This document shows, piece by piece, positions 298 to 50,607 of a DNA stretch of 64,000 nucleotides. Origin of the DNA: Shinella daejeonensis (GTDB taxonomy: Bacteria > Pseudomonadota > Alphaproteobacteria > Rhizobiales > Rhizobiaceae). The notes below the pieces were generated by a model that was not told where the DNA came from, did no database searches, and was given only the letters and a program-made list of their open reading frames with translations. The DNA lies in assembly GCF_024281235.1 (NCBI RefSeq), contig NZ_JAHWXY010000002.1, positions 744,001 to 808,000 of the forward strand, written 5' to 3'. Position 1 is the stretch's first letter. Every line of letters starts with the position of its first letter. The position numbers and the translations under genes were made by a program.

Positions 298-2112
298 TCA
301 GGCCGCCGTTCTCAAAGCGTTTCGACGTTGCGTGGTCGCGGTGAGATCGATGGCGTAGCCGAGATCGTTTTCGGACGGGGTGAGCACGACGCCGTAGATG
401 TCGCGCGCGCGTTCCAGCGTCTCCCATCGCTCGGCAACGTCGTAGAGGACGCGCTGCGGATCGCGATCGAGCGGGTTGCCGTAGCCGCCGCCGGAATTGT
501 CGATGCCACGCAGCCATTCTCCGGGCGCAAGATCGACCTGGGCGACACCCGGAAGCCGCTCTTCATTGCCGTCCAGATCGATCTTGAAGGTTCTGGCGCC
601 GGGGCTGTCGTGGCCGCCGTTGACCCCCTTGGGCGGAAACACCTGCCCGTCGCAGGGAATGGCGACGGTCATCGTGTCCTTCTTCGGGCCGTAGACGAGT
701 TCGGCTCCGGGTGCGCCGCGGAATTTGCCCGGAGCACAGGTGCCCGGATGAATCTGGACGGATTTCATCTGGATCGGATGCTTGACCTCGACCAGTTCGA
801 CGGAGTCCCGGTAGATGAGGCCGGCTGCAACCGGAATGCCATAGGTCAGCCATCCGTCCGCAGACGGGCTTGCCGGGCCGCCGTTGCCGCCGACGAAGAG
901 CTGGTTGATGTAGACCTCGTTGTCGCGGCGGAAATCCCTGCCGGAGACGACAGCCCACCCGGCTCCCATGCCGACGCCGCCTTCCGCAAGCCCGTAACCG
1001 TCGCCGAGTTTGGCGAGCGCGGACTGGGTAAGATTGACCAGACGGTCGCCGACGTTGGTCGTCGCGATCGACGCGGAATGCGGAAAGCTCGTTCGCCCGA
1101 TGACGGCGCCGTCACGCAGCAGCACCCGCACGCGGCGGAAGATGCCGGCGCAGCGCGGAATGTCCGGATCGAGGCAGTTCATGACGCCGGCGATCGAATT
1201 GTTGATCGCGCAGGCCTCGCAAACGTTGAAGCCGTTGTCGAGGCAATCGATATTGTCCCGAAGATCGATCTCGATGGTCGCTTCGGCCGGATCGATGGTG
1301 ATCTTGCAGTTGATGGGAATGCCGTCGGGAAGGCCCGGCAGGGGATCATGCGCGCCATTGTGCGTAATGGTGGCCGCCGGCATCTTGCTGATGGCCTGGA
1401 TGGTGCGCTTTTCCGAATAGTCGATCCACTGCCTGATGAACGCCTTGACCTTGTCCTTGCCATACTTGCGGCAGAACTCCGCAAGACGGCGTTCGCCCAC
1501 CCGCGCGGATCCGACGGCGGCGAGGAAGTCACCGTACCACTGATCCGGTACGCGAATGCGCTTGCGGCACATGCGGATGATGTCGTCGACCATCTTGTAG
1601 TCTCGCTGGACCCGCACGCAGGGGAAGATCAGGCCGCCTTCTTCGTAAACGTCGCGGGCGTAGGGCGCATAGGTCGTGGGTGTCGAATTGCCGGTGTCGG
1701 CCTGATGGGATTTCGCGCAGACCGTGAACATGTGCTCCCCGTCGACGAAGACGGGCACGAGGATCGTATGATCCGCCGGGTGGGTGTTGCCCATATAGGG
1801 ATCATTGTGGAGGAAGGCGTCTCCCGGCGCCAGATCGTCATGCAGCTGCTGCATCGAGATCGTCTGTAGATGCGAGCCGAAAATGTGGACGGGAAGCCCT
1901 TCGGCGGTCGCCAGCAGTTCGTTGTCGCCCGTGACGATCGCGCAGGACATGTCGCGGGCGCTGGCGATGACCGCGGAGCGGGCGGCGCGCAACAGGGTGC
2001 TCGTCATCTCGCGCACGATGCCGTCGACCCGGTTGGCCATGATGGACAACAGCATCGGATCGATGGCTTCGGAAGCGGGCGACGGGGAGGGATTTACGGT
2101 GGGAGCGTTCAT
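298..2112 (-). CDS. hyuB: Hydantoinase B / 5-oxoprolinase-type beta subunit
   Basis: About 604 residues over the full HyuB (hydantoinase B/oxoprolinase) family length. Family-typical stretches include GDAFLHNDPYMGNTHPADH (near residue 100) and NGFNVCEACAINNS. HyuA/HyuB pairs are ATP-dependent amidohydrolases or carboxylases acting on hydantoins, 5-oxoproline or ketones such as acetone and acetophenone. Here the pair sits next to a GntR regulator and a binding protein, so a transported small molecule is likely. I chose ATG 2112, which has AAAGGG eight bases upstream; an ATG/TTG at 2143-2145 overlapping the hyuA stop is an alternative. Substrate unknown. Confidence 0.88.
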   Translation of the reverse strand: MNAPTVNPSPSPASEAIDPMLLSIMANRVDGIVREMTSTLLRAARSAVIASARDMSCAIVTGDNELLATAEGLPVHIFGSHLQTISMQQLHDDLAPGDAFLHNDPYMGNTHPADHTILVPVFVDGEHMFTVCAKSHQADTGNSTPTTYAPYARDVYEEGGLIFPCVRVQRDYKMVDDIIRMCRKRIRVPDQWYGDFLAAVGSARVGERRLAEFCRKYGKDKVKAFIRQWIDYSEKRTIQAISKMPAATITHNGAHDPLPGLPDGIPINCKITIDPAEATIEIDLRDNIDCLDNGFNVCEACAINNSIAGVMNCLDPDIPRCAGIFRRVRVLLRDGAVIGRTSFPHSASIATTNVGDRLVNLTQSALAKLGDGYGLAEGGVGMGAGWAVVSGRDFRRDNEVYINQLFVGGNGGPASPSADGWLTYGIPVAAGLIYRDSVELVEVKHPIQMKSVQIHPGTCAPGKFRGAPGAELVYGPKKDTMTVAIPCDGQVFPPKGVNGGHDSPGARTFKIDLDGNEERLPGVAQVDLAPGEWLRGIDNSGGGYGNPLDRDPQRVLYDVAERWETLERARDIYGVVLTPSENDLGYAIDLTATTQRRNALRTAA

Positions 2113-2141
2113 TTCAGGAACCCTTTGACTGTTCGCGGACA

Positions 2142-4208
2142 TCAAAGCGAGATGATGTAGTTGCTATTGGCGCTGACGCGGGCGGTGGACCCCGGATAGA
2201 CGACGACGGTGGTCGTCGGCTCCTCGATGATCGCCGGTCCGGTGATCGTGCATCCGATTTCGAGATCCTGCCCGCGGTAGACCGGCACATCGTCAATGGA
2301 ATCGCCGAAGTAGGATCTGCGCGTCCCGCTGGAGCCGCTTCCGCTTTCCGCCGTCTTCTCGCCGGCCCAGTTGGCTTTTCCGAGCGAGACGGTCATGCGG
2401 CCGCGCCAGTTGAGGCATTCGACCTGTGCGGTTTCGTCCCGAACGGCAAATACGCGCTCGTGCGACTGGTGAAATGCATCCACGAGTCCCAGGACGTCTT
2501 GCTCCCCTTCAATCCTGCGGCTGGGCAGGGCGGCGTCCAGCTCCCAGACCTGCGTCAGGTAGCGGGCTTCGACCGTATATTCACGCCGGATATTGCCGCC
2601 GGCCGCGATCTCCAGTTGCTCGGAAGCCTTGTCGAGCCGGGTATCGATTTCGTCGAGGGTGTTGCGCACGCCTTCGTAATCGAAGCGTCCGGTCGTGGTG
2701 ACGCAGTTGCCCGATTCCTCGAAGATGATATCGGAGAACTGCATGCCGCTTGCCGAGAGGGCGCTGGCGGTTTTGGGTAGGATGATCGTCCGCACGCCGA
2801 GTTCGCGTGCGATGGGAACGATGTTGATGCCGGCGGCGCCGCCGCCTGCGACAAGCGTCGATTCGCATGGATCGAAGCCCTCCGCGACGGTGATGTCCTG
2901 GATCGCATTGATCATGTGCTCGTTTGCGATGTTGATGATCGCAAAGGCCGCGCGTTCCAGCGAGATGCCGAGCTCCGTCGCCAGGGTCCCGACCGCCTTC
3001 TTCGCTGCGTCGACATCAAGTTTCATCCGCCCGCCGAGGAAGTAGGCGGGATCGATATAACCGAGAACCAGCGCCGCGTCGGTGACCGTCGCCTTGTCGC
3101 CGCCCTTGCCGTAGCAGGCTGGGCCGGGAACGGAACCGGCGGACATCGGCCCGACCCTGAGCAGGCCGCCATTGTCGATCCAGGCGATGGACCCGCCGCC
3201 AGCGCCGATCGACCGCACGTCGACGGACGAGATCGCCGTCAGATGGCCCATCCATTGGCCGCCGAGCCAGGTTTCGCGCGTATATTTGAGCTCGCCTTCG
3301 CGAACCAGCCCGACGTCGAAGGTGGTGCCGCCCGTATCGCAGATGATGACGTCGTCACCGAGATCTTCCATGCGCGAGAAGGCGCGCCCGGCGACCGGCG
3401 CCATGGCCGGGCCGGATTTGACGGTATGGACCGGTTTTTCGACAAGGTCCGCCACATGGGTGCAGCCGCCGGCGGAAGTGGACACCAGGATGTCTCCGGC
3501 AAAGCCTGCGGCCACCAGGTCCCGCTGCATTTCGCGCAGATGGTTCTGCATCAGCGGCTTGATGGAGGCGTCGATCGCCGTCGTCGAAGCGCGGCGATAT
3601 TCGCGCACGATCGGCACGAGCACATGGGACAAGGACACCGCGATGCCCGGTGCTTCTTCGGCGAGGATTTCACCCATGCGCAACTCGTGCAAGGGATTGG
3701 CGATGGACCAGAGGAAGCAGACGGCCGCCGCTTCGAAACCGTCCGACACCAGTCGCTTCGCCAGTTTGCGGGCCGCCGCCTCGTCGAGGCCGGTCACGAC
3801 CTCGCCTTCGGACGATATGCGTTCATCGACTTCGAACGTGTGGCGGCGGGCAATGTAGGGTCTGGGGAAGTCGTAGGAAAAATCATGCGGGCCGAACTTG
3901 CCGCCCTCGCGCGTCACCAGGATGTCCGGAAAGCCCCTGGTGGTCAGGAAGGCCGTCTTTGCGACCTTTCCCTGGACGATCGCGTTCGTGGAGTGGGTCG
4001 TTCCATAGATCAGCAGCCCCGCTTCGCCGAGGAGCGTCTCGACGGAAACACCGAGTTCCCCCGCCGCCATCTGCATGGCGCCGCGCATGCCGTGGAAAAT
4101 CCGGTCCGGCGTGGTCAGCGACTTGCCGATGACGACTTTTCCCCTGTCGTCCTGGACGACCACGTCGGTAAACGTCCCGCCGGTGTCGACTGATATCCTG
4201 TACTTCAT
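2142..4208 (-). CDS. hyuA: Hydantoinase A / 5-oxoprolinase-type alpha subunit (ATP-binding)
   Basis: 688 residues, full family length. The N-terminal DTGGTFTDVV motif (residues 8-17) is the phosphate-binding loop of the ASKHA-like HyuA fold, and GTTHSTNA and DTGGTTFDVG further in are also typical. HyuA phosphorylates the substrate carbonyl so that it can be hydrolysed or carboxylated together with HyuB. It ends where hyuB begins, so the two are translationally coupled, and the GntR gene lies 33 bp upstream. It could be an N-methylhydantoinase, oxoprolinase or acetone/acetophenone-carboxylase-type subunit; the sequence does not decide. Confidence 0.9.
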   Translation of the reverse strand: MKYRISVDTGGTFTDVVVQDDRGKVVIGKSLTTPDRIFHGMRGAMQMAAGELGVSVETLLGEAGLLIYGTTHSTNAIVQGKVAKTAFLTTRGFPDILVTREGGKFGPHDFSYDFPRPYIARRHTFEVDERISSEGEVVTGLDEAAARKLAKRLVSDGFEAAAVCFLWSIANPLHELRMGEILAEEAPGIAVSLSHVLVPIVREYRRASTTAIDASIKPLMQNHLREMQRDLVAAGFAGDILVSTSAGGCTHVADLVEKPVHTVKSGPAMAPVAGRAFSRMEDLGDDVIICDTGGTTFDVGLVREGELKYTRETWLGGQWMGHLTAISSVDVRSIGAGGGSIAWIDNGGLLRVGPMSAGSVPGPACYGKGGDKATVTDAALVLGYIDPAYFLGGRMKLDVDAAKKAVGTLATELGISLERAAFAIINIANEHMINAIQDITVAEGFDPCESTLVAGGGAAGINIVPIARELGVRTIILPKTASALSASGMQFSDIIFEESGNCVTTTGRFDYEGVRNTLDEIDTRLDKASEQLEIAAGGNIRREYTVEARYLTQVWELDAALPSRRIEGEQDVLGLVDAFHQSHERVFAVRDETAQVECLNWRGRMTVSLGKANWAGEKTAESGSGSSGTRRSYFGDSIDDVPVYRGQDLEIGCTITGPAIIEEPTTTVVVYPGSTARVSANSNYIISL

Positions 4209-29453: not shown

Positions 29454-29909
29454 CTATCGCCCGGACAGGGCAAGCGCCTTGTTCTTGTAGCGCTTGTCCT
29501 GCGTGACCTCCCTGCCGAACCAGCGCGGCGGGTCGAAGGCGCTTGCCGCTTCCTCTGATGGAAACTCGACCTCGACCAGTGTCAAAGGCGCAAGATGTCC
29601 GCCAAAGACGTCAAGTTCGAATTCCTGACCTCCGGGCAATGTCCCGTGATGGCGGTTCTTTTCCACGCGGCGGCCTTCGGTGGCGGGCCAGAGGGTTTCG
29701 AACTGCGTGATCTCGATTGCGATCTCATATTCCTCGCGGACCAGGTCGCCATCGGATTTCAGCGTCAGGAAATAATCGCCGCCTTTCTGCCGCAACCGGA
29801 CTTCCACCGAATCCGAGGTGGCTGTCAGATAACCTTGGCGAATCGGCTCGAAGGGCAGTCCCTGCGGCACCGGACCCTCGACCAGGAATTTCCGTTCGAT
29901 TTCTTTCAT
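29454..29909 (-). CDS. CYTH domain protein (inorganic triphosphatase-like)
   Basis: 151 residues, a single CYTH domain. EIERKFLV (residues 3-10) supplies the ExExK signature; VEVRLRQKGGDYFLTLKSDG and FELDVFGGHLAPLTLVEVEF provide the basic and acidic residues lining the triphosphate tunnel. Bacterial members hydrolyse tripolyphosphate or act on phosphate chains with Mg2+. Its ATG overlaps the ParA stop by four bases. The CHAD protein in the same operon points to polyphosphate as the shared theme. Confidence 0.9.
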   Translation of the reverse strand: MKEIERKFLVEGPVPQGLPFEPIRQGYLTATSDSVEVRLRQKGGDYFLTLKSDGDLVREEYEIAIEITQFETLWPATEGRRVEKNRHHGTLPGGQEFELDVFGGHLAPLTLVEVEFPSEEAASAFDPPRWFGREVTQDKRYKNKALALSGR

Positions 29910-30655
29910 CGCTCCAACCGCTGCTCCAGTTCATCGAACAGCCCCTGATACGCCTTGCCGGCCGTGCTGTTGGGCGCCGTGACGAGAATGGGCGCGCGGG
30001 TCATCCCCATGCGTTCTATTTCCGACGCGAAAGGAATCTGGGCCGACATGAAGCGCTTGGGATGCGTTCGCGTCATCTCGACGACCATGTCGCCATGCAG
30101 GCTCTTGCTGCGCTGAACCATCGAGAAGAAGGCGTGTATCTTGCGGGCCGGCAGATCGTTGTCGCGGAAAAATTCCAGCAGTTGCTCGAAGGTGCGTTGC
30201 GACAGCGTCGTCGGAATGACCGGCACGATCACCGCATCCGCCGCCCGCAGGACGTTTTCCGACAACATCGAGATGTTGGGCGGGCAATCGAGAACCACGG
30301 TGTCGTAATCGGCCTTGACCGCCTTCAGCGCTTTTTTTAACCGCGAACGGCTGTTCTTCATTCTCGACAGGAAAATATCGAAGTCGCGAAAGCTCATATT
30401 CGACGGCAGAATGTCGAGATTGGCGTAGTCGCTGCCCCGGATTGCCCGGGTGAAACGCTCGACATCCTCGAAGAAGCGGGCTTCGGTCAGTTTCTTCGAA
30501 GGCTTCACGCGGTAATAGAAGCTCGATGCGCCCTGCGGGTCGAGATCGCACAGCAACGTCCGCTTGCCCGATGCGGCGAAAGCATAGGCGAGATTCGCGG
30601 CGGTCGCGGATTTACCGACGCCGCCCTTGTTGGAATAGCAGGCGATGATCTGCAT
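29906..30655 (-). CDS. ParA-family partition ATPase, orphan
   Basis: 249 residues. The deviant Walker A SNKGGVGKSATAANLAYAF (residues 8-26) with its signature lysine, DLDPQGASSF, and Walker B YDTVVLDCPPNISML define a ParA/Soj-type ATPase that forms gradients on the nucleoid to place a cargo. No ParB or centromere sits beside it. It is translationally coupled to the CHAD gene upstream (one-base overlap) and to the CYTH gene downstream (ATGA overlap), so its cargo may be a polyphosphate body. Confidence 0.92.
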   Translation of the reverse strand: MQIIACYSNKGGVGKSATAANLAYAFAASGKRTLLCDLDPQGASSFYYRVKPSKKLTEARFFEDVERFTRAIRGSDYANLDILPSNMSFRDFDIFLSRMKNSRSRLKKALKAVKADYDTVVLDCPPNISMLSENVLRAADAVIVPVIPTTLSQRTFEQLLEFFRDNDLPARKIHAFFSMVQRSKSLHGDMVVEMTRTHPKRFMSAQIPFASEIERMGMTRAPILVTAPNSTAGKAYQGLFDELEQRLER

Positions 30656-32486: not shown

Positions 32487-33521
32487 TCAGTGTTTCCCGA
32501 ACCTTCTGCGTTGCCGCTTTATCGACTGTGCCGCCTTTGTGTCAATCGGCCCTTTTTGCTCGTCAAAAATGGCGGCGACGGCCTTCCCAGCCTCATTGCT
32601 GTGAACGTAGGTCTCCATAAAAAGTTTTGCCGATTTCCAGCCCCCGGCCTCCATGGCGTCTTTCACCTTCGCGCCGCCGGCCATGACGTTCGTCCCGAAT
32701 GAGTGACGGCCGGCAGAGTGCGTTGTACGAGCCTCGATGCCGGCTCTTTTTGCTACGGCCTTCATTCTCCGGTTTACGGCCTTCGGGTCTGTGTAGGAAA
32801 ACACACGCTCTCCTTCGCGCGGGTTCAACCCGGCGATCCTCCCCACCAGTTCTGCCGTCAGGCTCCTGACGGAATCCTCTTCCGTCTTCGTTTTAGCCAG
32901 CACCGCTATGCGACGACCTAGATCGACGCATTCGCCCGTCAAGTTCACGGCCTCTGCTACGCGAGCGCCTGTCTGGTGCATGAATAGCACTATGGCCGAT
33001 AAATGAGGGAGCTTGCTTCTGTCCGCCTCGGCCATGAAGGCGTCCAGCCACTTGCGATCAACGGGTTTGTGCTTTCGGCTTTTAGGGACCTCGAAGCCCT
33101 TGACCTTGATCGGCGAGCACCAGCCGCGGTCTGCGCCATGATTGATGACGCTTACGGCTGGCGTGATAGCCTGTCGGTTTCGGGTGGCATTTGCGGCGCT
33201 CGGATAGAGAGTGACCGCCATATCGCGAACGTCACCTGGCTTTATCCTACCTAGGGCATGGCCTTTGAAGTGTTTTAGGATTTTCGGGAGGAACCGCCCT
33301 TCGCCTCCCTGCCTCAGGTAACTTTCGGCGGCTTCCTCGAATGTGCGGACGGCTTCCTCGCCATAGGAATGACGTTTCCAGATCCTCGCTTCGAAGAGCG
33401 CGCATTGCTCTTCGGCCCTTTTGCGGTCGCGAGTGCCAAGGCTCTTTCGTATGCGCTCTCCGTTGACGGTTCCAACGGCGTACCAGATGCCGTCTCGTTC
33501 TTTGATTTCGAGGTTGGACAC
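32487..33521 (-). CDS. int: Tyrosine-type phage integrase
   Basis: 344 residues from a GTG start (GGGAAG seven bases upstream). The C-terminal catalytic domain shows the Arg of HQTGARVAEAVNLTGE, the His/Arg box THSAGRHSFGTNVMAGG and the nucleophile Tyr in LFMETYVHSN. The N-terminal half includes a SAM-like core-binding region (TFEEAAESYLRQGGEGRFL). It lies 23 bp from the half-tRNA, the standard arrangement. Its first 208 bp overlap the preceding helix-turn-helix gene in another frame. Confidence 0.95.
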   Translation of the reverse strand: MSNLEIKERDGIWYAVGTVNGERIRKSLGTRDRKRAEEQCALFEARIWKRHSYGEEAVRTFEEAAESYLRQGGEGRFLPKILKHFKGHALGRIKPGDVRDMAVTLYPSAANATRNRQAITPAVSVINHGADRGWCSPIKVKGFEVPKSRKHKPVDRKWLDAFMAEADRSKLPHLSAIVLFMHQTGARVAEAVNLTGECVDLGRRIAVLAKTKTEEDSVRSLTAELVGRIAGLNPREGERVFSYTDPKAVNRRMKAVAKRAGIEARTTHSAGRHSFGTNVMAGGAKVKDAMEAGGWKSAKLFMETYVHSNEAGKAVAAIFDEQKGPIDTKAAQSIKRQRRRFGKH

Positions 33522-42978: not shown

Positions 42979-43383
42979 TTACATCCCCAGAGAGTGGCGG
43001 ATGCAGGCTCGGATTTCTTCGATCTTCTCGGGTGGCAACACACGCACATCGTAGATACGTTGACCGGCGTTGTCCTTTCCTCGGTCCAAGAGTTTTAGCC
43101 GATGGAATGCAACGCACATCAGCATGTCTGCCTTAATCCACATGCGGCCCGCATTGTACGGGAAGGGCAGCGGCGGGTCTAGATCCAGGACACAGTTGTA
43201 TGGCTGCATTGGGTTTGGGGCTGTCGTGCTCAACGGTACAATAGTGCAGAGCTTGTCCCTGCCGGACAGCTTCGGAGACATTACGATCGCGGGCCGACGC
43301 TTGCGCATTTCAGGAATGCGGAACCCATCGTTCAAGTCAACGCGCAGAATAGTGCCAACCTGTGGGTGAGAAAGAAGACTCAT
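42979..43383 (-). CDS. PemK/MazF-family toxin
   Basis: 134 residues. GTILRVDLNDGFRIPEMRKR, RPAIVMSPKLSGRD and CTIVPLSTTAP are hallmarks of MazF/PemK mRNA interferases; the loop Arg/Pro of KRRPAIV and the Thr/Ser of PLST are at the expected active-site positions. Chromosomal and phage members cleave mRNA and are neutralised by a small antitoxin encoded upstream. The only small gene upstream is at 43424. Confidence 0.85.
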   Translation of the reverse strand: MSLLSHPQVGTILRVDLNDGFRIPEMRKRRPAIVMSPKLSGRDKLCTIVPLSTTAPNPMQPYNCVLDLDPPLPFPYNAGRMWIKADMLMCVAFHRLKLLDRGKDNAGQRIYDVRVLPPEKIEEIRACIRHSLGM

Positions 43384-44061: not shown

Positions 44062-44217
44062 ATGAGCGAGGCCTTTAGGCTCTTCGATTGCTGGTATCGT
44101 CTTCCGCCACAGGAGCGCCTGGCGATTGTGCATCTAATGAAGGAGACCCTAAGGAAGCAAGGGCTTCCCGCACCACCTTCTTCCCTTGATCGTCGAGAGA
44201 AAGAGCGAGGCGAATAA
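44062..44217 (+). CDS. Possible 51-residue protein antisense to the repressor 3' end
   Basis: ATG 44062 follows GAGGGGGCGA and opens a 51-codon frame (MSEAFRLFDCWYRLPPQERL at the start) 12 bp after the preceding gene. It overlaps the 3' end of the repressor gene by 143 bp on the other strand. The ribosome-binding site and helical composition favour it; the overlap and short length count against it. Confidence 0.4.
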   Translation: MSEAFRLFDCWYRLPPQERLAIVHLMKETLRKQGLPAPPSSLDRREKERGE

Positions 44218-44446
44218 AAGCCTCCGCTTCCGGGGTGAGCTTCATCCCGGAGGTCACATAAAGAGTTGCGGTCGATCCCAGCACGTCAAGCACAGAAGCA
44301 AGCTTCGGGAATGAGGGATCTTTCCCATCCTTAAACATCTGAGATAGGAAATTTGGGCCAGTTCCGGCCTTCAGGCTAATGGCGCGCAGGCTGCGCCCAT
44401 CTGCCTTCAACATCTCTTCTAGCCGGTCTTTCCACCCCTCAATCAT
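44075..44446 (-). CDS. XRE-family prophage repressor
   Basis: 123 residues. Residues about 8-55 form a helix-turn-helix (LRAISLKAGTGPNFLSQMFK, then PSFPKLASVLDVL). The remainder is helical without a LexA-like peptidase, so induction is unlikely to be by self-cleavage. It is transcribed leftwards from a weak promoter whose -10 (TATAAC, 44491-44486) overlaps a degenerate operator, consistent with autoregulation. It most likely binds the CACGC-N4-GCGTG sites at 42615, 42646 and 44507. Confidence 0.85.
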   Translation of the reverse strand: MIEGWKDRLEEMLKADGRSLRAISLKAGTGPNFLSQMFKDGKDPSFPKLASVLDVLGSTATLYVTSGMKLTPEAEAFIRLALSLDDQGKKVVREALASLGSPSLDAQSPGAPVAEDDTSNRRA

Positions 44447-44749: not shown

Positions 44750-45012
44750 GCGCCGACGCACACAGCATTCCCGAATTGACCAACGCCATGAAGGCCGCTC
44801 TCAAGTGGCTCTGCAACCGCAATGCCGATGGCGTGTTCGATAAGCACCAAGTTCTCACCGCCGCTGGCGAGCGTGCCCCCGTGATGCGTTCGACGTGGTC
44901 GAGGCTCGAACGTGCAGGGATGGTCGAGCGATATCTCAGCAATCGGCGGATGAGAGTGACAGCTTCTGGTCATGCGATCGACCTCCGCGACATACGGGAG
45001 TCACAGCCATGA
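44746..45012 (+). CDS. Small winged-helix-like phage protein
   Basis: 88 residues, ATGA-coupled to the gene before. ALKWLCNRNADGVFDKHQVL, then STWSRLERAGMVERYLSNRR and MRVTASGHAIDL, suggests a small winged helix. It starts with MSADAHSI, encoded by DNA repeated at 45009. Confidence 0.65.
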   Translation: MSADAHSIPELTNAMKAALKWLCNRNADGVFDKHQVLTAAGERAPVMRSTWSRLERAGMVERYLSNRRMRVTASGHAIDLRDIRESQP

Positions 45013-45092
45013 GCGCCGACGCACACAGCATCGCTGACGATCAGGTCCGCTCCGCCTTCCAGTGCTGGAAGAACCTCGAAGAGAGGTTTTAG
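45009..45092 (+). CDS. 27-residue peptide beginning with the repeated MSADAHSI tag
   Basis: ATGA-coupled to the preceding stop. It repeats the first 23 bases of the gene at 44746 and then reads DDQVRSAFQCWKNLEERF. It could be a real short peptide, or the remnant of a duplication of the start region of the preceding gene. Confidence 0.4.
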   Translation: MSADAHSIADDQVRSAFQCWKNLEERF

Positions 45093-45095
45093 CCG

Positions 45096-45389
45096 ATGCG
45101 TGACTTTGACACTCCGGCCGAGTTCGCTCAGCGAATGAAAAACCATGACGCCGATGTGCGCAGTCTCGTCGGTCGCCTCGTTTCGATCGAAGAGCGAATG
45201 GATGAGCAAAACCGGTTGAAGAGCCTCGTTTTTGCCGAGGCGCGCGTGGCGAACATCGATATCGCGGCTTTGAAGGCGGTCGTCCGCATCAACCGATCGC
45301 TCTCGTACAGCAACTCTACTGATCTCGAAGGGCTCACTGGTGAAGTGAAGCGATACCTCGATCTCATCAACACGAAGCCGGGAGCGTAA
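45096..45389 (+). CDS. GapR-like (DUF2312-like) small protein
   Basis: 97 residues. LVSIEERMDEQNRLKSLVFA followed by NIDIAALKAVVRINRS parallels the GapR helices of the next protein ([14 protein letters not shown] ... [15 protein letters not shown]) in order and spacing, ending in YLDLI like GapR's YMAAL. This suggests a divergent GapR relative, made as a separate protein directly upstream of the GapR-ParB fusion. No other function is visible. Confidence 0.6.
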   Translation: MRDFDTPAEFAQRMKNHDADVRSLVGRLVSIEERMDEQNRLKSLVFAEARVANIDIAALKAVVRINRSLSYSNSTDLEGLTGEVKRYLDLINTKPGA

Positions 45390-45392
45390 CCA

Positions 45393-46742
45393 ATGTCTGA
45401 CGCACACGCAGTAACCCGAGCCGAACTCCGCCAGCTTATCGAGCGGATAGAGCGCTTGGAAGAAGAGAAAGCCTCGATCAGCGACGACATCAAGGACGTC
45501 TACGGCGAGGCGAAGGGACGCGGCTACGACACCAAGGCGATGCGGACCATCGTCCGGCTGCGCAAGAAGGACGCCAATGAGCGCCTCGAGGAAGAAAGCA
45601 TCCTGCAAACCTATATGGCCGCTCTCGGCATGATCGAGCAGCCGGGGTTCTTCGATGATGAGCCGAGGCAGACGGCCCAAGTCGATCGCAAGGCTCGCGC
45701 CGCCGTCCGGACTTCCGAAGCTATGGACGACAACAAGGCGTTCTCCGCCGAGCTTGTCGCCGCTGGCCTTATTTCCGAAGAAGCTCATGCCGAAAACATC
45801 GCCCTGTCCGATGCCATCGCCCGCAAGTACGGCGCTGGCGTCATCGATACCGAGTCCGGCGAAATCCTTGATGATTCCCGCCGCTCCGACGCCGGCCTTT
45901 CCATCGTCACCAAGCACGAAGACATCAGAACAGCGCCGGTAACGGCGGAAGAATCCCCGCGCAAGGCGGCGGAGGCGGTATCCGAGAGGACCGCATTCAC
46001 GGACGCAACTGTAGCGCCCGTTTTGGTCGAAGCCGAGAAGGCCGAGGCTGTGGCTGGGGGATTGGGGCAACCCGATGCGATCCCAGCTCTGACCGTCCAG
46101 CATGACGGCGTGAACGTCGGCGGCCTCGAAAGGGCAGGCGTGACGGCGGGAGAGACCGCAACCATTCCCCAATCGGACGACGGCGCAATCGTTGCAGTGA
46201 ACGCAAGAGACGGACTGGCGGACGCCATTGGCGTCGAACCGTCGTCGTCCGGCCAGTGCGCGGCACCTGAAAAGGACGCCGCAGCGGACGAGCGTAGTGT
46301 TGAAGCTACGGTGGAACAGCGCTCGTCCGCGCTCACCTCTAGCCGGCCCGACGTGATGATCGAAGACGTCCCGCCGACGTCGATGAAGCGGCTGCCCTAT
46401 GCGCACTGCTTCCCGGAGCTGTCGAATGCGGACTACCGCGCTCTGGAAGTCAGCGTCATCGCTATCGGCGTCTCCACACCAATCATCCGCATGGGCGACA
46501 TGATCGTGGACGGATGGGCTCGTTACAACATCGCCAGAAACTTGGGCATCTCCTATCCGGTCGCAAACTATCGGGGCGATGACGTCCTGATCGACCTGAT
46601 CGGCTGGCAGCGCGCTTCCCGAAATTTCACGCCATCGCAGGAAAGGAAGATCGCCGCCGAGTTGGCGAAGGAACTTCCCGACCGTGCCGACGAGATCATG
46701 GCCGCCTTCGGGCTGGCCGAAGCTTTGGAGGCCGCGGAATGA
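45393..46742 (+). CDS. GapR-domain / ParB-like fusion protein
   Basis: 449 residues. Residues 1-80 are a clear GapR/DUF2312 domain ([55 protein letters not shown]). GapR is an alphaproteobacterial nucleoid protein that clamps overtwisted DNA. A 240-residue low-complexity linker follows. Residues about 325-430 resemble the ParB/sulfiredoxin N-domain ([20 protein letters not shown], then [16 protein letters not shown]). The gene lies just before an ORF pair leading to a PAPS-reductase-like enzyme. I know of no described GapR-ParB fusion. Confidence 0.88.
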
Positions 46743-46873
46743 AGCGTGGACCCGAAACTGAAACCGAAGACGCTGTAGCCGCCGCGATAGATTCCGCTGC
46801 GCAGTCGACAATCGAGGCAGTGCGAGGCGCTGATCCTTTCGTCCGCTCCACCCACCCGAGGAAGTCACCATGA
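46739..46873 (+). CDS. 44-residue acidic protein
   Basis: ATGA-coupled to the GapR-ParB stop; encodes [20 protein letters not shown] and 24 more residues. Coupling at both ends (it overlaps the next start by four bases) supports translation. Unknown function. Confidence 0.5.
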
Positions 46874-47046
46874 CCCCGCTTATCGCTCTCTCCATTGGCT
46901 GTGCGGCCTTCATCGTTGGGTTTTCGTTGGGCCTCGCGGCGTTCGCCATCGTCTGGCAGTTCTTGAACTCGCCGCTCGACGAAGAAGACAGCGGAGCGCC
47001 GGAAGGTGCTCTTCCGATCGGTCAGGACGGTTCCTCCTCCGTCTGA
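46870..47046 (+). CDS. Small single-pass membrane protein
   Basis: 58 residues ([20 protein letters not shown] at the start) with one long transmembrane segment to AIVWQFL and an acidic C-terminal tail. AGGAAG lies just upstream. It is followed by a terminator-like hairpin, so it may end the first early transcript segment. Confidence 0.6.
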   Translation: MTPLIALSIGCAAFIVGFSLGLAAFAIVWQFLNSPLDEEDSGAPEGALPIGQDGSSSV

Positions 47047-47052
47047 TCGGCA

Positions 47053-47091
47053 GAGGGGCGCGGTTCACCCTCCTCACAATCCGCGCCCCTC
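47053..47091 (+). terminator. Terminator-like hairpin after the small membrane protein
   Basis: GAGGGGCGCGG / CCGCGCCCCTC, a perfect 11-bp stem with a 17-base loop, followed by CATTACTTT. The weak T-run suggests partial termination. Confidence 0.55.
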
Positions 47092-47101
47092 ATTACTTTC
47101 A

Positions 47102-47158
47102 CCCTCGGGAACTGTCCTCGAAGCCGCAAAACCACGGCTCGGACAGGAACGGCGAGGG
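47102..47158. other. Nested hairpin in the 286-bp gap 47047-47332
   Basis: Three nested helices: CCCTCG/CGAGGG, CTGTCC/GGACAG and AGCCG/CGGCT. With the preceding terminator-like stem it makes this gap unusually structured. No coding frame with a good start is visible here. Confidence 0.4.
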
Positions 47159-47332
47159 GAACAAATCCGCCCTGCGGCGGGCCTGCGGAGGCGGCGGGTT
47201 TCCTGGCATCTGTCCCGTCGCCTCCCTCGAAATTTGAAGTTCGTCTCATGTGTATCCCTTCGGGCCTGAACATCCCGAAATAAGCACGGAGACTGTGTCT
47301 TGCGTAACAAATCTAATGTCGTGGAAGACAAA

Positions 47333-48754: not shown

Positions 48755-48936
48755 ACGACATCACCCTCATCAAGGAAGAAATCAAAGAGCAGGAAGAAGA
48801 CATCTTCCGTCTTCGCGGCTCGATGCAGCGTGCCGACAACGGCGTCAAGCTCCACCGGATAGCGGTTAGAGTGCGCACCGTCTCCCGGTTGAAGGACATT
48901 CTTGCTGTCCTTGAGAACAGGAGGGCGAGCGCATGA
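48751..48936 (+). CDS. Small coiled-coil phage protein
   Basis: 61 residues, ATGA-coupled on both sides. LIKEEIKEQEEDIFRLRGSM followed by VRTVSRLKDILAVLENRR predicts a helical hairpin or coiled coil. It may be an accessory subunit of the flanking enzymes. Confidence 0.65.
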   Translation: MNDITLIKEEIKEQEEDIFRLRGSMQRADNGVKLHRIAVRVRTVSRLKDILAVLENRRASA

Positions 48937-49499
48937 CGTGGTTCTTCGACCCGCTTATCCCGCTCCACTACGAACTGATGGTCATCGATATCCCGTGGCC
49001 GTTCGACCTTTACAGCGAGGCCGGAGCAAAGAAGTCGGCGTCGGCGCAATACGATGTCATGACCGCTGAGCAGATACTGGCGTTGCCGATCGGTCAGCTC
49101 GCGAGCATGAACAGCCTTGTTTATTCGTACGCGACCGCGCCGCTCTTGCCGTTTGCGATCCAGGCTCTTCAGGCGTGGGGCTTCACCTACAAGAGCTTCA
49201 TGGCTTGGCGAAAGACGACGCCGGCGGGCAAGGTCCGCATGGGCACTGGTTATCGCGTCCGCACGACTGCCGAAATCATTCTCGTCGGCACGCTCGGCAA
49301 TCCGCGTCAGTCTTATGTCCCGCCGACAGTCTTCGACGGGATCGCCCGCGAGCATAGCCGCAAGCCGGACGAGTTCTATTCCATCTGCGATCGTGTCATG
49401 CCCCACGCTCGCCGGGCTGATATTTTTGCACGTGAGAGCCGCGCTGGCTGGCATAGCTTCGGCAACGAGGCGACCAAATTCGACGGGGTGGCGGCATGA
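48933..49499 (+). CDS. MT-A70-type DNA adenine N6-methyltransferase
   Basis: 188 residues. The catalytic motif is MVIDIPWPF (DIPW at 19-22, a DPPW variant). YDVMTAEQILALPIGQLA, LQAWGFTYKSFMAWRKT and GTGYRVRTTAEIILVGT follow in the order of MT-A70 enzymes, and the SAM-binding tail is RADIFARESRAGWHSFGNE. Such phage enzymes methylate adenine in DNA, often to evade host restriction. It overlaps both neighbours by four bases. Confidence 0.9.
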   Translation: MTWFFDPLIPLHYELMVIDIPWPFDLYSEAGAKKSASAQYDVMTAEQILALPIGQLASMNSLVYSYATAPLLPFAIQALQAWGFTYKSFMAWRKTTPAGKVRMGTGYRVRTTAEIILVGTLGNPRQSYVPPTVFDGIAREHSRKPDEFYSICDRVMPHARRADIFARESRAGWHSFGNEATKFDGVAA

Positions 49500-49888
49500 C
49501 AGGTGCGATCCGAATCCCCATCAGCAATATGCCGCCATCAGCGAATGCCATGCGCTCGCACTTCTATGATGGAGAGAAGGTCCGCAGCACGAAGAGCAAG
49601 CCCTATGCTGCTTGGAAGAAGGCCACAGCGTGGGAGATTGCCGGGGCGCGACCGGGACGCATAGACGGTCCGTACCGCCTGTACATCGCCGTCCAGCGCC
49701 ATTGGCGGTCCAAGCGCGCCCGCGACATCGACAACATCATCAAGCCGGTCTCCGACGCGCTGGTTGCTGCTGGCGTCATCTCCGACGACAACCTGGCGGA
49801 AGAGGTTAACGCGAAGTGGGCCGATAATCTGGGCGGCCCTGCTGTTGTCGTTCTGATCTGCGCCGCCGAACAGGAACTAGCGGCATGA
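49496..49888 (+). CDS. rusA: RusA-family Holliday junction resolvase
   Basis: 130 residues. RDIDNIIKPVSDALVAAGVI followed by SDDNLAEEV carries the catalytic acidic residues of RusA, and PPSANAMRSHFYDGEKVRS matches the family N-terminus. It resolves branched DNA before packaging. ATGA-coupled to the methylase upstream and to the next gene. Confidence 0.92.
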   Translation: MTGAIRIPISNMPPSANAMRSHFYDGEKVRSTKSKPYAAWKKATAWEIAGARPGRIDGPYRLYIAVQRHWRSKRARDIDNIIKPVSDALVAAGVISDDNLAEEVNAKWADNLGGPAVVVLICAAEQELAA

Positions 49889-50607
49889 GCGACGTTGCTG
49901 CCCTCATCGCCGATATGGTGCGCGCTGGCGTCGACCCTGAATTGATCGGGAGGACTGCCGCAGCGCTTGCGAACACGCCGACGGTCCCGGCAAAGACAGC
50001 CAGACAAGAGCGGAATGCGCGCTACTATCAGAAGAGGGCGTCTGAAAAGCGTCTTAATAAGACGGATCAAGACGTTTCAGACGCTACCGACGGCCTTTCT
50101 TCCCCTGAAGGTTCTTCCCCCACACCCCCTTCTCCTAAACCCCTTCAATCCATACCCCCTTCGCCCCCTAAAGGGGGCTCTTCCCCCACGGATCGGGCGA
50201 TTGAGGTTTTTTCTGAGCAGGCTTCCAGAGCCGGTCTTCCCGTGCCTCGGAAGATCACCGCTGATCGCCGCCGCAAGGTCGAGGCTCGACTTCGGGAGCA
50301 CGGTGAACCCGTTTGGGCTGAGGCCTGCCGGAAGATGGCGGAAAGCTCGTTTTGCCGGGGCGAGAATGATCGAGGCTGGCGCGCCGATCTGGATTTCCTT
50401 TGCCAGCCGAAAAGCTTCAATGGGCTGATCGAGGGAAAGTACGACGACCGTCCCCGCCAGCAATCCCAGGCCCCTCCCAGACAATCCGCTTTCCGCCAGC
50501 ACCAAGACGAAATTTACCGAAAACTGAAACGCGAGACCGGAGATACCGATGACCAATTTACCGGCACAACTCTCGACCTTGGATCAGGAGATTTCCGCCC
50601 TCACTGA
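49885..50607 (+). CDS. Phage protein, possible replication-associated
   Basis: 240 residues. A basic region (TARQERNARYYQKRASEKRL) near 40 is followed by a Ser/Pro-rich linker and a helical C-terminal part (KITADRRRKVEARLREHGEP, then GWRADLDFLCQPKSFNGLIE). That C-terminal pattern resembles phage proteins next to replication genes, but assignment is uncertain. The 3' end overlaps the next gene by 59 bp. Confidence 0.6.
   Translation: MSDVAALIADMVRAGVDPELIGRTAAALANTPTVPAKTARQERNARYYQKRASEKRLNKTDQDVSDATDGLSSPEGSSPTPPSPKPLQSIPPSPPKGGSSPTDRAIEVFSEQASRAGLPVPRKITADRRRKVEARLREHGEPVWAEACRKMAESSFCRGENDRGWRADLDFLCQPKSFNGLIEGKYDDRPRQQSQAPPRQSAFRQHQDEIYRKLKRETGDTDDQFTGTTLDLGSGDFRPH

Follow-up and report, generated by a model that had tools for sequence, protein, structure and literature searches.

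A prophage in the genome of the α-proteobacterium Shinella daejeonensis carries a gene that joins two DNA-associated protein families within one polypeptide. In the 64,000-nucleotide stretch analyzed here (contig NZ_JAHWXY010000002.1, positions 744,001 to 808,000 of the forward strand; hereafter the window), this GapR-ParB fusion gene encodes a GapR-type head, a helical module, a long disordered linker and a tail with the ParB/sulfiredoxin fold (Table 1). While this architecture is near certain, its mechanism is inferred, and the reading that we favor, at a probability of about 0.42, is that the protein is an early-lytic-operon phage DNA clamp with an arm that binds nucleoside triphosphates (NTPs). 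The fusion is also one member of a mosaic family that swaps its ParB tail for a Cys-rich tail, so that delivery of a ParB-like part by GapR is one state of a wider device.

Architecture of the fusion protein

The GapR family profile PF10073 (DUF2312) covers its whole domain in the head, with residues 9-79 corresponding to profile positions 2-72 of 72 (E 8.5e-33; 112.2 bits against a gathering cut-off of 22.6). Profile NF010247 also matched the fusion (E 3.4e-37), the GapR equivalog NF052541 reached 91.6 bits, under its curated cut-off of 140, and solved UPF0335/GapR chains matched the head with a best E of 7.6e-26. When Caulobacter GapR numbering is carried to the head through the alignment, seven of the eight positions listed as DNA contacts (PMC7498317), a list with mutational support (PMC7373187), are basic, the exception being the K60 position, which is T52; the structural residues R65, E28, D68 and Y82 of GapR are also kept. 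Clamping of overtwisted DNA by the head is plausible because seven of these eight positions are basic.

An AlphaFold2 model of the tail (residues 320-449, from eight sequences) had a predicted local distance difference test score (pLDDT) of 88.3. In a Foldseek search with this model, pNOB8 ParB-N was the best and the sole Protein Data Bank (PDB) match at E<=0.001 (E 6.9e-4), followed by ParB, Noc and KorB chains with probabilities near 1. VIA-align placed the tail with KorB (Z 10.3), ParB-CDP of M. xanthus (Z 10.1), Noc (8.9) and a plant sulfiredoxin (8.2), above a background in which one uncharacterized protein reached Z 4.5 and the first otherwise unrelated row Z 3.2, and the fold search with the full-length model likewise returned ParB chains for this region. 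At the level of profiles, PHROG 21315, whose other half is MT-A70-like, matched residues 329-418 (E 2e-6). In a viral library, the tail had 41 matches at E<=0.001; among those listed, many are nameless and most named ones are ParB-like, the top match bearing the name L-ectoine synthase. A sequence search of the PDB with the tail profile gave SbnI as its best, non-significant match (E 0.042), and PF02195 did not match the fusion protein at E<=1; scanned over the organism's own genome at E<=10, PF02195 found two places only, both elsewhere.

The canonical Box III pair of ParB proteins is 'EN' (EN.QR type). This pair is absent from the tails, since the corresponding position is WQ or WN in 41 of 43 distinct tails (WQ in 30, WN in 11), RQ in one and truncated in one. 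The Box II P-motif, as defined in PMC12704722, is by comparison invariant (Table 1). In that study, replacing the arginine of Box II eliminated NTP binding by the controls, orphan proteins often had a divergent Box III and some of them bound ATP or GTP, and NTP was bound by 11 of 28 purified ParB-fold proteins, the other 17 binding nothing. The window protein ends 10 residues past the domain match (5-13 residues in the fused proteins), and neither a helix-turn-helix (HTH) nor a C-terminal dimerization domain follows the tail fold. A canonical ParABS identity is ruled out by the missing HTH, by the absence of a ParA-binding motif from the fusion protein and by the distance to parA: the sole ParA-type gene in the window (29906-30655, - strand) encodes a ParA-like ATPase beside a CHAD-domain gene, beyond the integrase and probably outside the prophage.

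In a full-length AlphaFold model built from 45 sequences, three parts are ordered: the GapR helices (6-77), a two-helix unit (99-145) and residues 321-448 in the ParB fold, where block pLDDT is 93-97 as far as residue 440. The mutual placement of these parts carries no meaning at the predicted template modeling score obtained (0.40). The two-helix unit lies in the S module, which had a block pLDDT of 82-96 across residues 101-150 and for which the fold search with the full-length model gave nothing convincing. Of the regions measured, the S module also shows the strongest purifying selection (dN/dS 0.06-0.12, four pairs), compared with 0.21-0.32 for the head (five pairs), 0.17-0.39 for the tail (seven pairs) and 0.45 for a linker block (one pair with very few changes), values that are rough because synonymous sites have diverged strongly in many pairs. 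This pattern points to a + strand protein under constraint. A longer antisense open reading frame (ORF) of 659 aa (44970-46949, - strand) overlaps the fusion gene and had no Pfam match at E<=0.1, and a PADLOC search found no match for the fusion protein at E<=0.01.

These results bear on an original prediction for this DNA, which had described a GapR/DUF2312 N-terminus and a ParB/sulfiredoxin-like C-terminus separated by a 240-residue disordered linker. Both ends were borne out; the PF02195 match proposed as a check of the ParB part was not found, and that question was settled by structure prediction instead. The linker is disordered as described from about residue 164 to 318, and the description fails for the helical module at 99-145.

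Table 1. Positions in the window of the fusion gene, its parts and prophage genes discussed in the text
Feature	Position	Strand	Evidence
GapR-ParB fusion gene	45393..46742	+	Single ATG-to-stop ORF, 449 aa, no interruption
GapR head, residues 6-81	45408..45635	+	PF10073, solved UPF0335/GapR chains, residue map
Helical 'S' module, residues 99-160 (helices 99-123, 129-145)	45687..45872	+	Block pLDDT, dN/dS
Disordered mosaic linker, residues 164-318 (about 155 residues)	45882..46346	+	Nearly all pLDDT<50
ParB/Srx (sulfiredoxin)-fold tail, residues 320-449, no HTH after	46350..46739	+	AlphaFold2 model, Foldseek, VIA-align
Box II P-motif G374-W-A-R377 (GxxR)	46512..46523	+	In 43/43 distinct tail domains
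Integrase	32487-33521	-	Prophage left arm, with HNH, NinB, RecT/Bet and exonuclease genes
Repressor-like gene, divergent from the rightward early operon	44075..44446	-	phrog_4268 transcriptional repressor, E 2.4e-4
Diverged GapR-like paralogue (97 aa), directly upstream of the fusion	45096..45389	+	hhalign 93.5% probability to GapR heads
Stand-alone MT-A70 adenine methyltransferase, no ParB domain	48933..49499	+	PF05063, E 1.4e-26; PHROG 21315 positions 240-411
RusA-like resolvase and O/DnaD-like replication initiator, same early operon	49496..50607	+	Profile matches

A mosaic family with exchangeable heads and tails

Relatives were searched in IMG/VR, GTDB contigs, phages and related genomes, with homologous loci labeled by L numbers. 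The 58 ORF records of ParB-tailed proteins include several from a contig that was retrieved twice; 43 distinct proteins remain, the window's own among them, and 32 of these 43 have a GapR head; named records come from Shinella, Ensifer, Devosia, Rhizobiales and the Sinorhizobium phage phiLM21. Among 297 genomes of the bacterial family, the tail matched in eight, namely the organism's own, two close ones with the fusion, that of L089 and four with ParB-MT-A70 genes. GapR occurs in 141 of 150 genomes in a survey of the order, in which, among the matches listed, the only GapR frames above 229 aa were the window ORF and one of 313 aa. The fusion is rare within these surveys, and phage-borne where its context was seen.

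The family includes a second tail type, Cys-rich and zinc-finger-like, for which all 42 distinct matches show a C-C-C-C pattern. This count is circular in part, such sequences having been used to build the profile; the tail may bind zinc. Among 85 distinct ParB- or Cys-tailed proteins, the GapR head (type G) is found with 32 ParB and 35 Cys tails, type C with six ParB tails, type E with one ParB and five Cys tails, and type F with four ParB tails and one Cys tail, the remaining protein being a headless Cys-tailed fragment, so both tails occur with three of the four head types. By hhalign, type C is GapR-like (91.8%), and types E and F show no relation to GapR (3.8% and 0.2%). Behind the head, 19 of the 85 proteins have module S, 39 module K, one both and 26 neither. 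Members of known phages include those of Rhizobium phages RHph_N28_2 and RHph_TM3_3_3, with a Cys tail behind a GapR head, and that of the inducible phage phiLM21, with a ParB tail behind a type C head; phiLM21_p022 is annotated as hypothetical.

Among the 32 GapR-headed ParB proteins, the distance between heads says almost nothing about the distance between tails (Mantel r 0.11, a value equaled or exceeded in 57 of 1000 permutations), and single pairs show sharp identity contrasts, with L094 and L095 sharing 98% in the tail and 40% in the head, and L097 and L110 sharing 99% in the head and 65% in the tail. A 96-aa linker block from residue 163 differs from its counterpart in L130 by a dS of 0.05 (dN/dS 0.45), against a dS of 0.78 in the ParB domain of the same pair. 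On these grounds modules are swapped without loss of frame, and recombination within or beside the linker is the simplest route. When 25 clusters were tested for a link between operon content and tail type, only the immediate downstream gene survived correction (p 5.7e-5). A small gene (L051 6704-6982 and relatives) follows Cys-tailed genes in 12 of 36 loci and ParB-tailed genes in none of 38, as if each tail moved along with its downstream neighbor.

Linkers of two relatives contain complete tRNA genes in frame, identified by ARAGORN as tRNA-Gln(UUG) (L111 5799-5872) and tRNA-Arg(UCU) (L118 2067-2142) and scored by Rfam at 57.1 and 59.5 bits (gathering score 29), so these stretches could encode both a protein linker and a tRNA. 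The L118 ORF (1512-3311), which encodes a ParB-tailed protein, also holds homing-endonuclease-like HNH_3 and AP2 domains in frame within its linker. Across 1.65 Mb of loci, some of them overlapping, two of four tRNAs found by ARAGORN lie inside family ORFs of at least 200 aa (111 kb), an enrichment that is suggestive only. A search of the window gave no tRNA, and a literature search on tRNA genes inside prophage reading frames gave, judging by titles, nothing on the subject.

One piece of the window's linker, of about 90 bases (46168-46261; L063 6561-6654), folds into a hairpin of 12-13 bp, with 83-88% identity to L063, to Rhizobium phage RHph_TM3_3_3 and to an R. leguminosarum plasmid record. 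Dispersed repeats were considered as a source of the linker modules and rejected: within their own genome, neither the 240-aa linker nor a hairpin-forming piece of 106 bases matches anything but itself; a search of 40 other related genomes, with no more than 21 first-look candidates scored in most, found the matching L063 piece in none; and no dispersed copies of the hairpin piece were found among the genomes searched. A decayed tRNA was also rejected, with no tRNA match at E<=1 in window positions 45000-47300 or at E<=5 in L063 6300-6800, where the lone RNA match, to a miRNA family and below cut-off, is read as a plain hairpin. Predicted RNA folding of four window pieces is ordinary (z -0.28 to -1.57; -2.28 for the L063 piece), and weak sRNA matches near window position 47016 all fall under gathering scores.

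Prophage setting and early operon

As had been predicted, the fusion gene sits in a prophage, and the window holds integrase, RecT, NinB, terminase, portal and major head genes. The early operon runs in the order GapR paralogue, fusion, PAPS-reductase-like gene, MT-A70, RusA and O/DnaD-like initiator, and is followed by terminase, portal, scaffold and major head genes. Similar positions are seen in phages: in RHph_N28_2 and RHph_TM3_3_3 the family member comes second among the rightward genes that follow an S24 repressor, and in phiLM21 it is the third gene after the repressor. The GapR paralogue falls below the PF10073 cut-off (E 0.037); its tandem with the fusion gene recurs in L005/L083, and in L031 a GapR-headed ORF precedes a Cys-tailed ORF. 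Near the repressor region, a gene at 42979-43383 (- strand) resembles a MazF-like growth inhibitor (phrog_1936, E 1.4e-5), its best match being phrog_15698, of unknown function.

Proposed function and alternative explanations

The conserved residues suggest that the GapR head would assemble as GapR does, presumably as a tetramer, and ring phage DNA, with overtwisted stretches preferred. The S module and the disordered tether of about 155 residues would then hang one ParB-type domain on each subunit, so that GapR would supply DNA binding, and probably multimerization, in place of ParB's own parts. Because Box II is kept and the canonical Box III, HTH and dimerization domain are lost, the tail would probably bind nucleotide and recognize no parS-like site. 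In its nucleotide-bound state, the tail could recruit or release a phage partner, most likely one acting in replication or adenine methylation, at a time in infection that the operon position suggests to be early.

GapR, the ParB fold and adenine methyltransferases also meet outside the fusion. In nine of 33 GapR loci without a recognized tail, a ParB-MT-A70 gene lies downstream on the same strand (upstream in none), at distances that range from a frame overlap of up to 126 bases to 1.9 kb from gapR; with the profiles of this analysis, ParB or MT-A70 was found in none of 27 RusA-anchored loci without GapR, control loci that are unmatched and often short. In record PQ394074, gapR is followed after 29 bases by a gene annotated as ParB/sulfiredoxin, a label that is the annotators', Pfam giving nothing for this gene at 1e-3. 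In L090, a ParB-MT-A70 ORF (1438-3282) appears by eye to run on into GapR-ParB-like linker pieces, as if modules move between genes. The recurrence of these three components in different splits suggests a shared process.

Several points weigh against an NTP-binding clamp and against this linkage. Members in which a Cys-rich tail replaces the ParB tail show that the family's shared role does not require NTP binding, and the ParB tail may bind no NTP at all, given its degenerate Box III and the minority of purified ParB-fold proteins that bound any. Across the 32 GapR-headed ParB proteins, several DNA-contact positions vary, with G at the K59 position in 13 and a basic residue at the R63 position in seven, which is partly an alignment effect. 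Of the nine ParB-MT-A70 genes, five overlap gapR and seem to come from related phages; in L044, L045, L046 and L060, ParB was called with a profile that had L044 as its seed; Pfam ParB_N was found in one of five such proteins tested (L044, 3.7e-4, below cut-off); and L069, counted among the 33 loci, has a Cys-tail-like end. MT-A70 lies within 6 kb downstream of ParB tails at six of 38 loci and of Cys tails at seven of 36, so no link ties MT-A70 to the ParB tail.

The clamp can also be set within a broader and more tentative proposal, in which α-proteobacterial phages would maintain a combinatorial nucleoid-protein system, with heads, spacers and effector tails of one early gene swapped in frame through a disordered linker able to accept entire tRNA genes and a homing-type endonuclease. 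The ParB form would then be a supercoil-sensing, NTP-gated clamp in which GapR replaces the HTH. Either way, the picture of GapR plus ParB in the original prediction holds for its parts and is incomplete as a whole, since the linker includes a folded module, the tail has neither HTH nor dimerization domain and the family is a mosaic; action ahead of phage replication forks, which that prediction gave as an example, would be speculative.

It is unlikely, though less so than the other alternatives, that the protein is a transcription factor that rings DNA near early or late promoters and uses its exchangeable tail to contact RNA polymerase or a regulator, in the manner suggested for T4 DsbA, which has been called a GapR homologue (PMC7824862). 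The early-operon position near the repressor and the tracking of the immediate downstream gene by tail type fit this explanation. The operon is, however, shared with replication and methyltransferase genes, and an RNA polymerase-binding feature did not turn up, none having been searched for.

We consider it rather improbable that the ParB tail docks a downstream MT-A70 or GANTC methyltransferase while GapR holds it on phage DNA. Such targeting would be in keeping with the nine loci where a ParB-like domain and MT-A70 share one polypeptide adjoining gapR, with their union in PHROG 21315 and several of the nearest tail relatives, and with the MT-A70 gene downstream in the window and the GANTC-specific enzyme downstream in phiLM21 (PMC5537653). 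It is weighed lower because MT-A70 is no more tied to ParB than to Cys tails in the counts given above; in addition, phiLM21_p027 is unmatched by the MT-A70 profile, and two of its relatives, phi2LM21_p21 and phi3LM21_p21, can methylate GANTC in E. coli with no fusion-family protein present (PMC5537653).

More doubtful still is a takeover of the host, in which the phage GapR head would mix with host GapR and the tail would disturb host topology or ParABS. The genome does encode its own targets for such interference, a second gapR (C11:1010887) and a parB beside a ParA-type ATPase gene (C32), but the fusion protein has no ParA-binding motif. Finally, a sequencing or assembly error that fused two genes is virtually impossible, and chance does not explain the join either, since 43 distinct ParB-tailed proteins, 32 of them GapR-headed, have their domains in the same order and full-length relatives have intact frames, in agreement with the prediction of one gene.

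Comparison with known systems

The head of the phage DNA clamp proposed here is like Caulobacter GapR, a nucleoid-associated protein, over the whole domain, but GapR is known as a single domain of ~89 aa and the fusion has 449. Outside the family, the nearest relatives of the tail are phage ParB proteins with an HTH, many of them joined to MT-A70 (PHROG 21315 type), among them L089, in which no MT-A70 was found (E 2.3e-13), and the ParB-MT-A70 proteins of L090-L093 (3e-8 to 3e-7), as well as the ParB of Acidovorax phage AP1. The PHROG 21315-type proteins share with the tail a DGxxR Box II followed by a TxxQ helix, but they continue for at least 150 residues after the ParB domain, whereas the fusion ends there and has GapR at its front.

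Phage GapR (PMC12185513; PMC7824862) and phage ParB-fold fusions (PMC12704722) are already in print. The latter, ParB-CTPase-fold fusions, likewise combine a ParB fold with a lineage-specific partner in phages and prophages; the main text of that survey mentions GapR zero times, and its Fig. 4 counts PF02195 proteins, whereas the tail has no PF02195 match. In Erythrobacter phage R34L1 (PQ394074), ORF28 (GapR) and ORF29 (ParB/sulfiredoxin) encode the same domains as unfused neighbors, which PMC12185513 discusses separately; that paper assigns PQ394074 to R34L1, and the record title is vB_EliS-R22L. The terms p022, ParB and DUF2312 are all absent from the main texts of PMC12429752 and PMC5537653. 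Literature searches confined to the articles themselves turned up no account of a GapR-ParB protein, in agreement with the original prediction, and none of head and tail exchange.

The fusion places two mechanically different DNA-encircling families in one polypeptide that phages freely recombine, so the roles of head and tail are testable separately by simple swaps, which can begin with the members from phiLM21, RHph_N28_2 and RHph_TM3_3_3 in phages of root-nodule bacteria. The interchangeable ends suggest a modular way to adapt the handling of virus DNA, and, if the tail binds NTP, the protein would be a topology-directed counterpart to the parS-directed ParB clamp.
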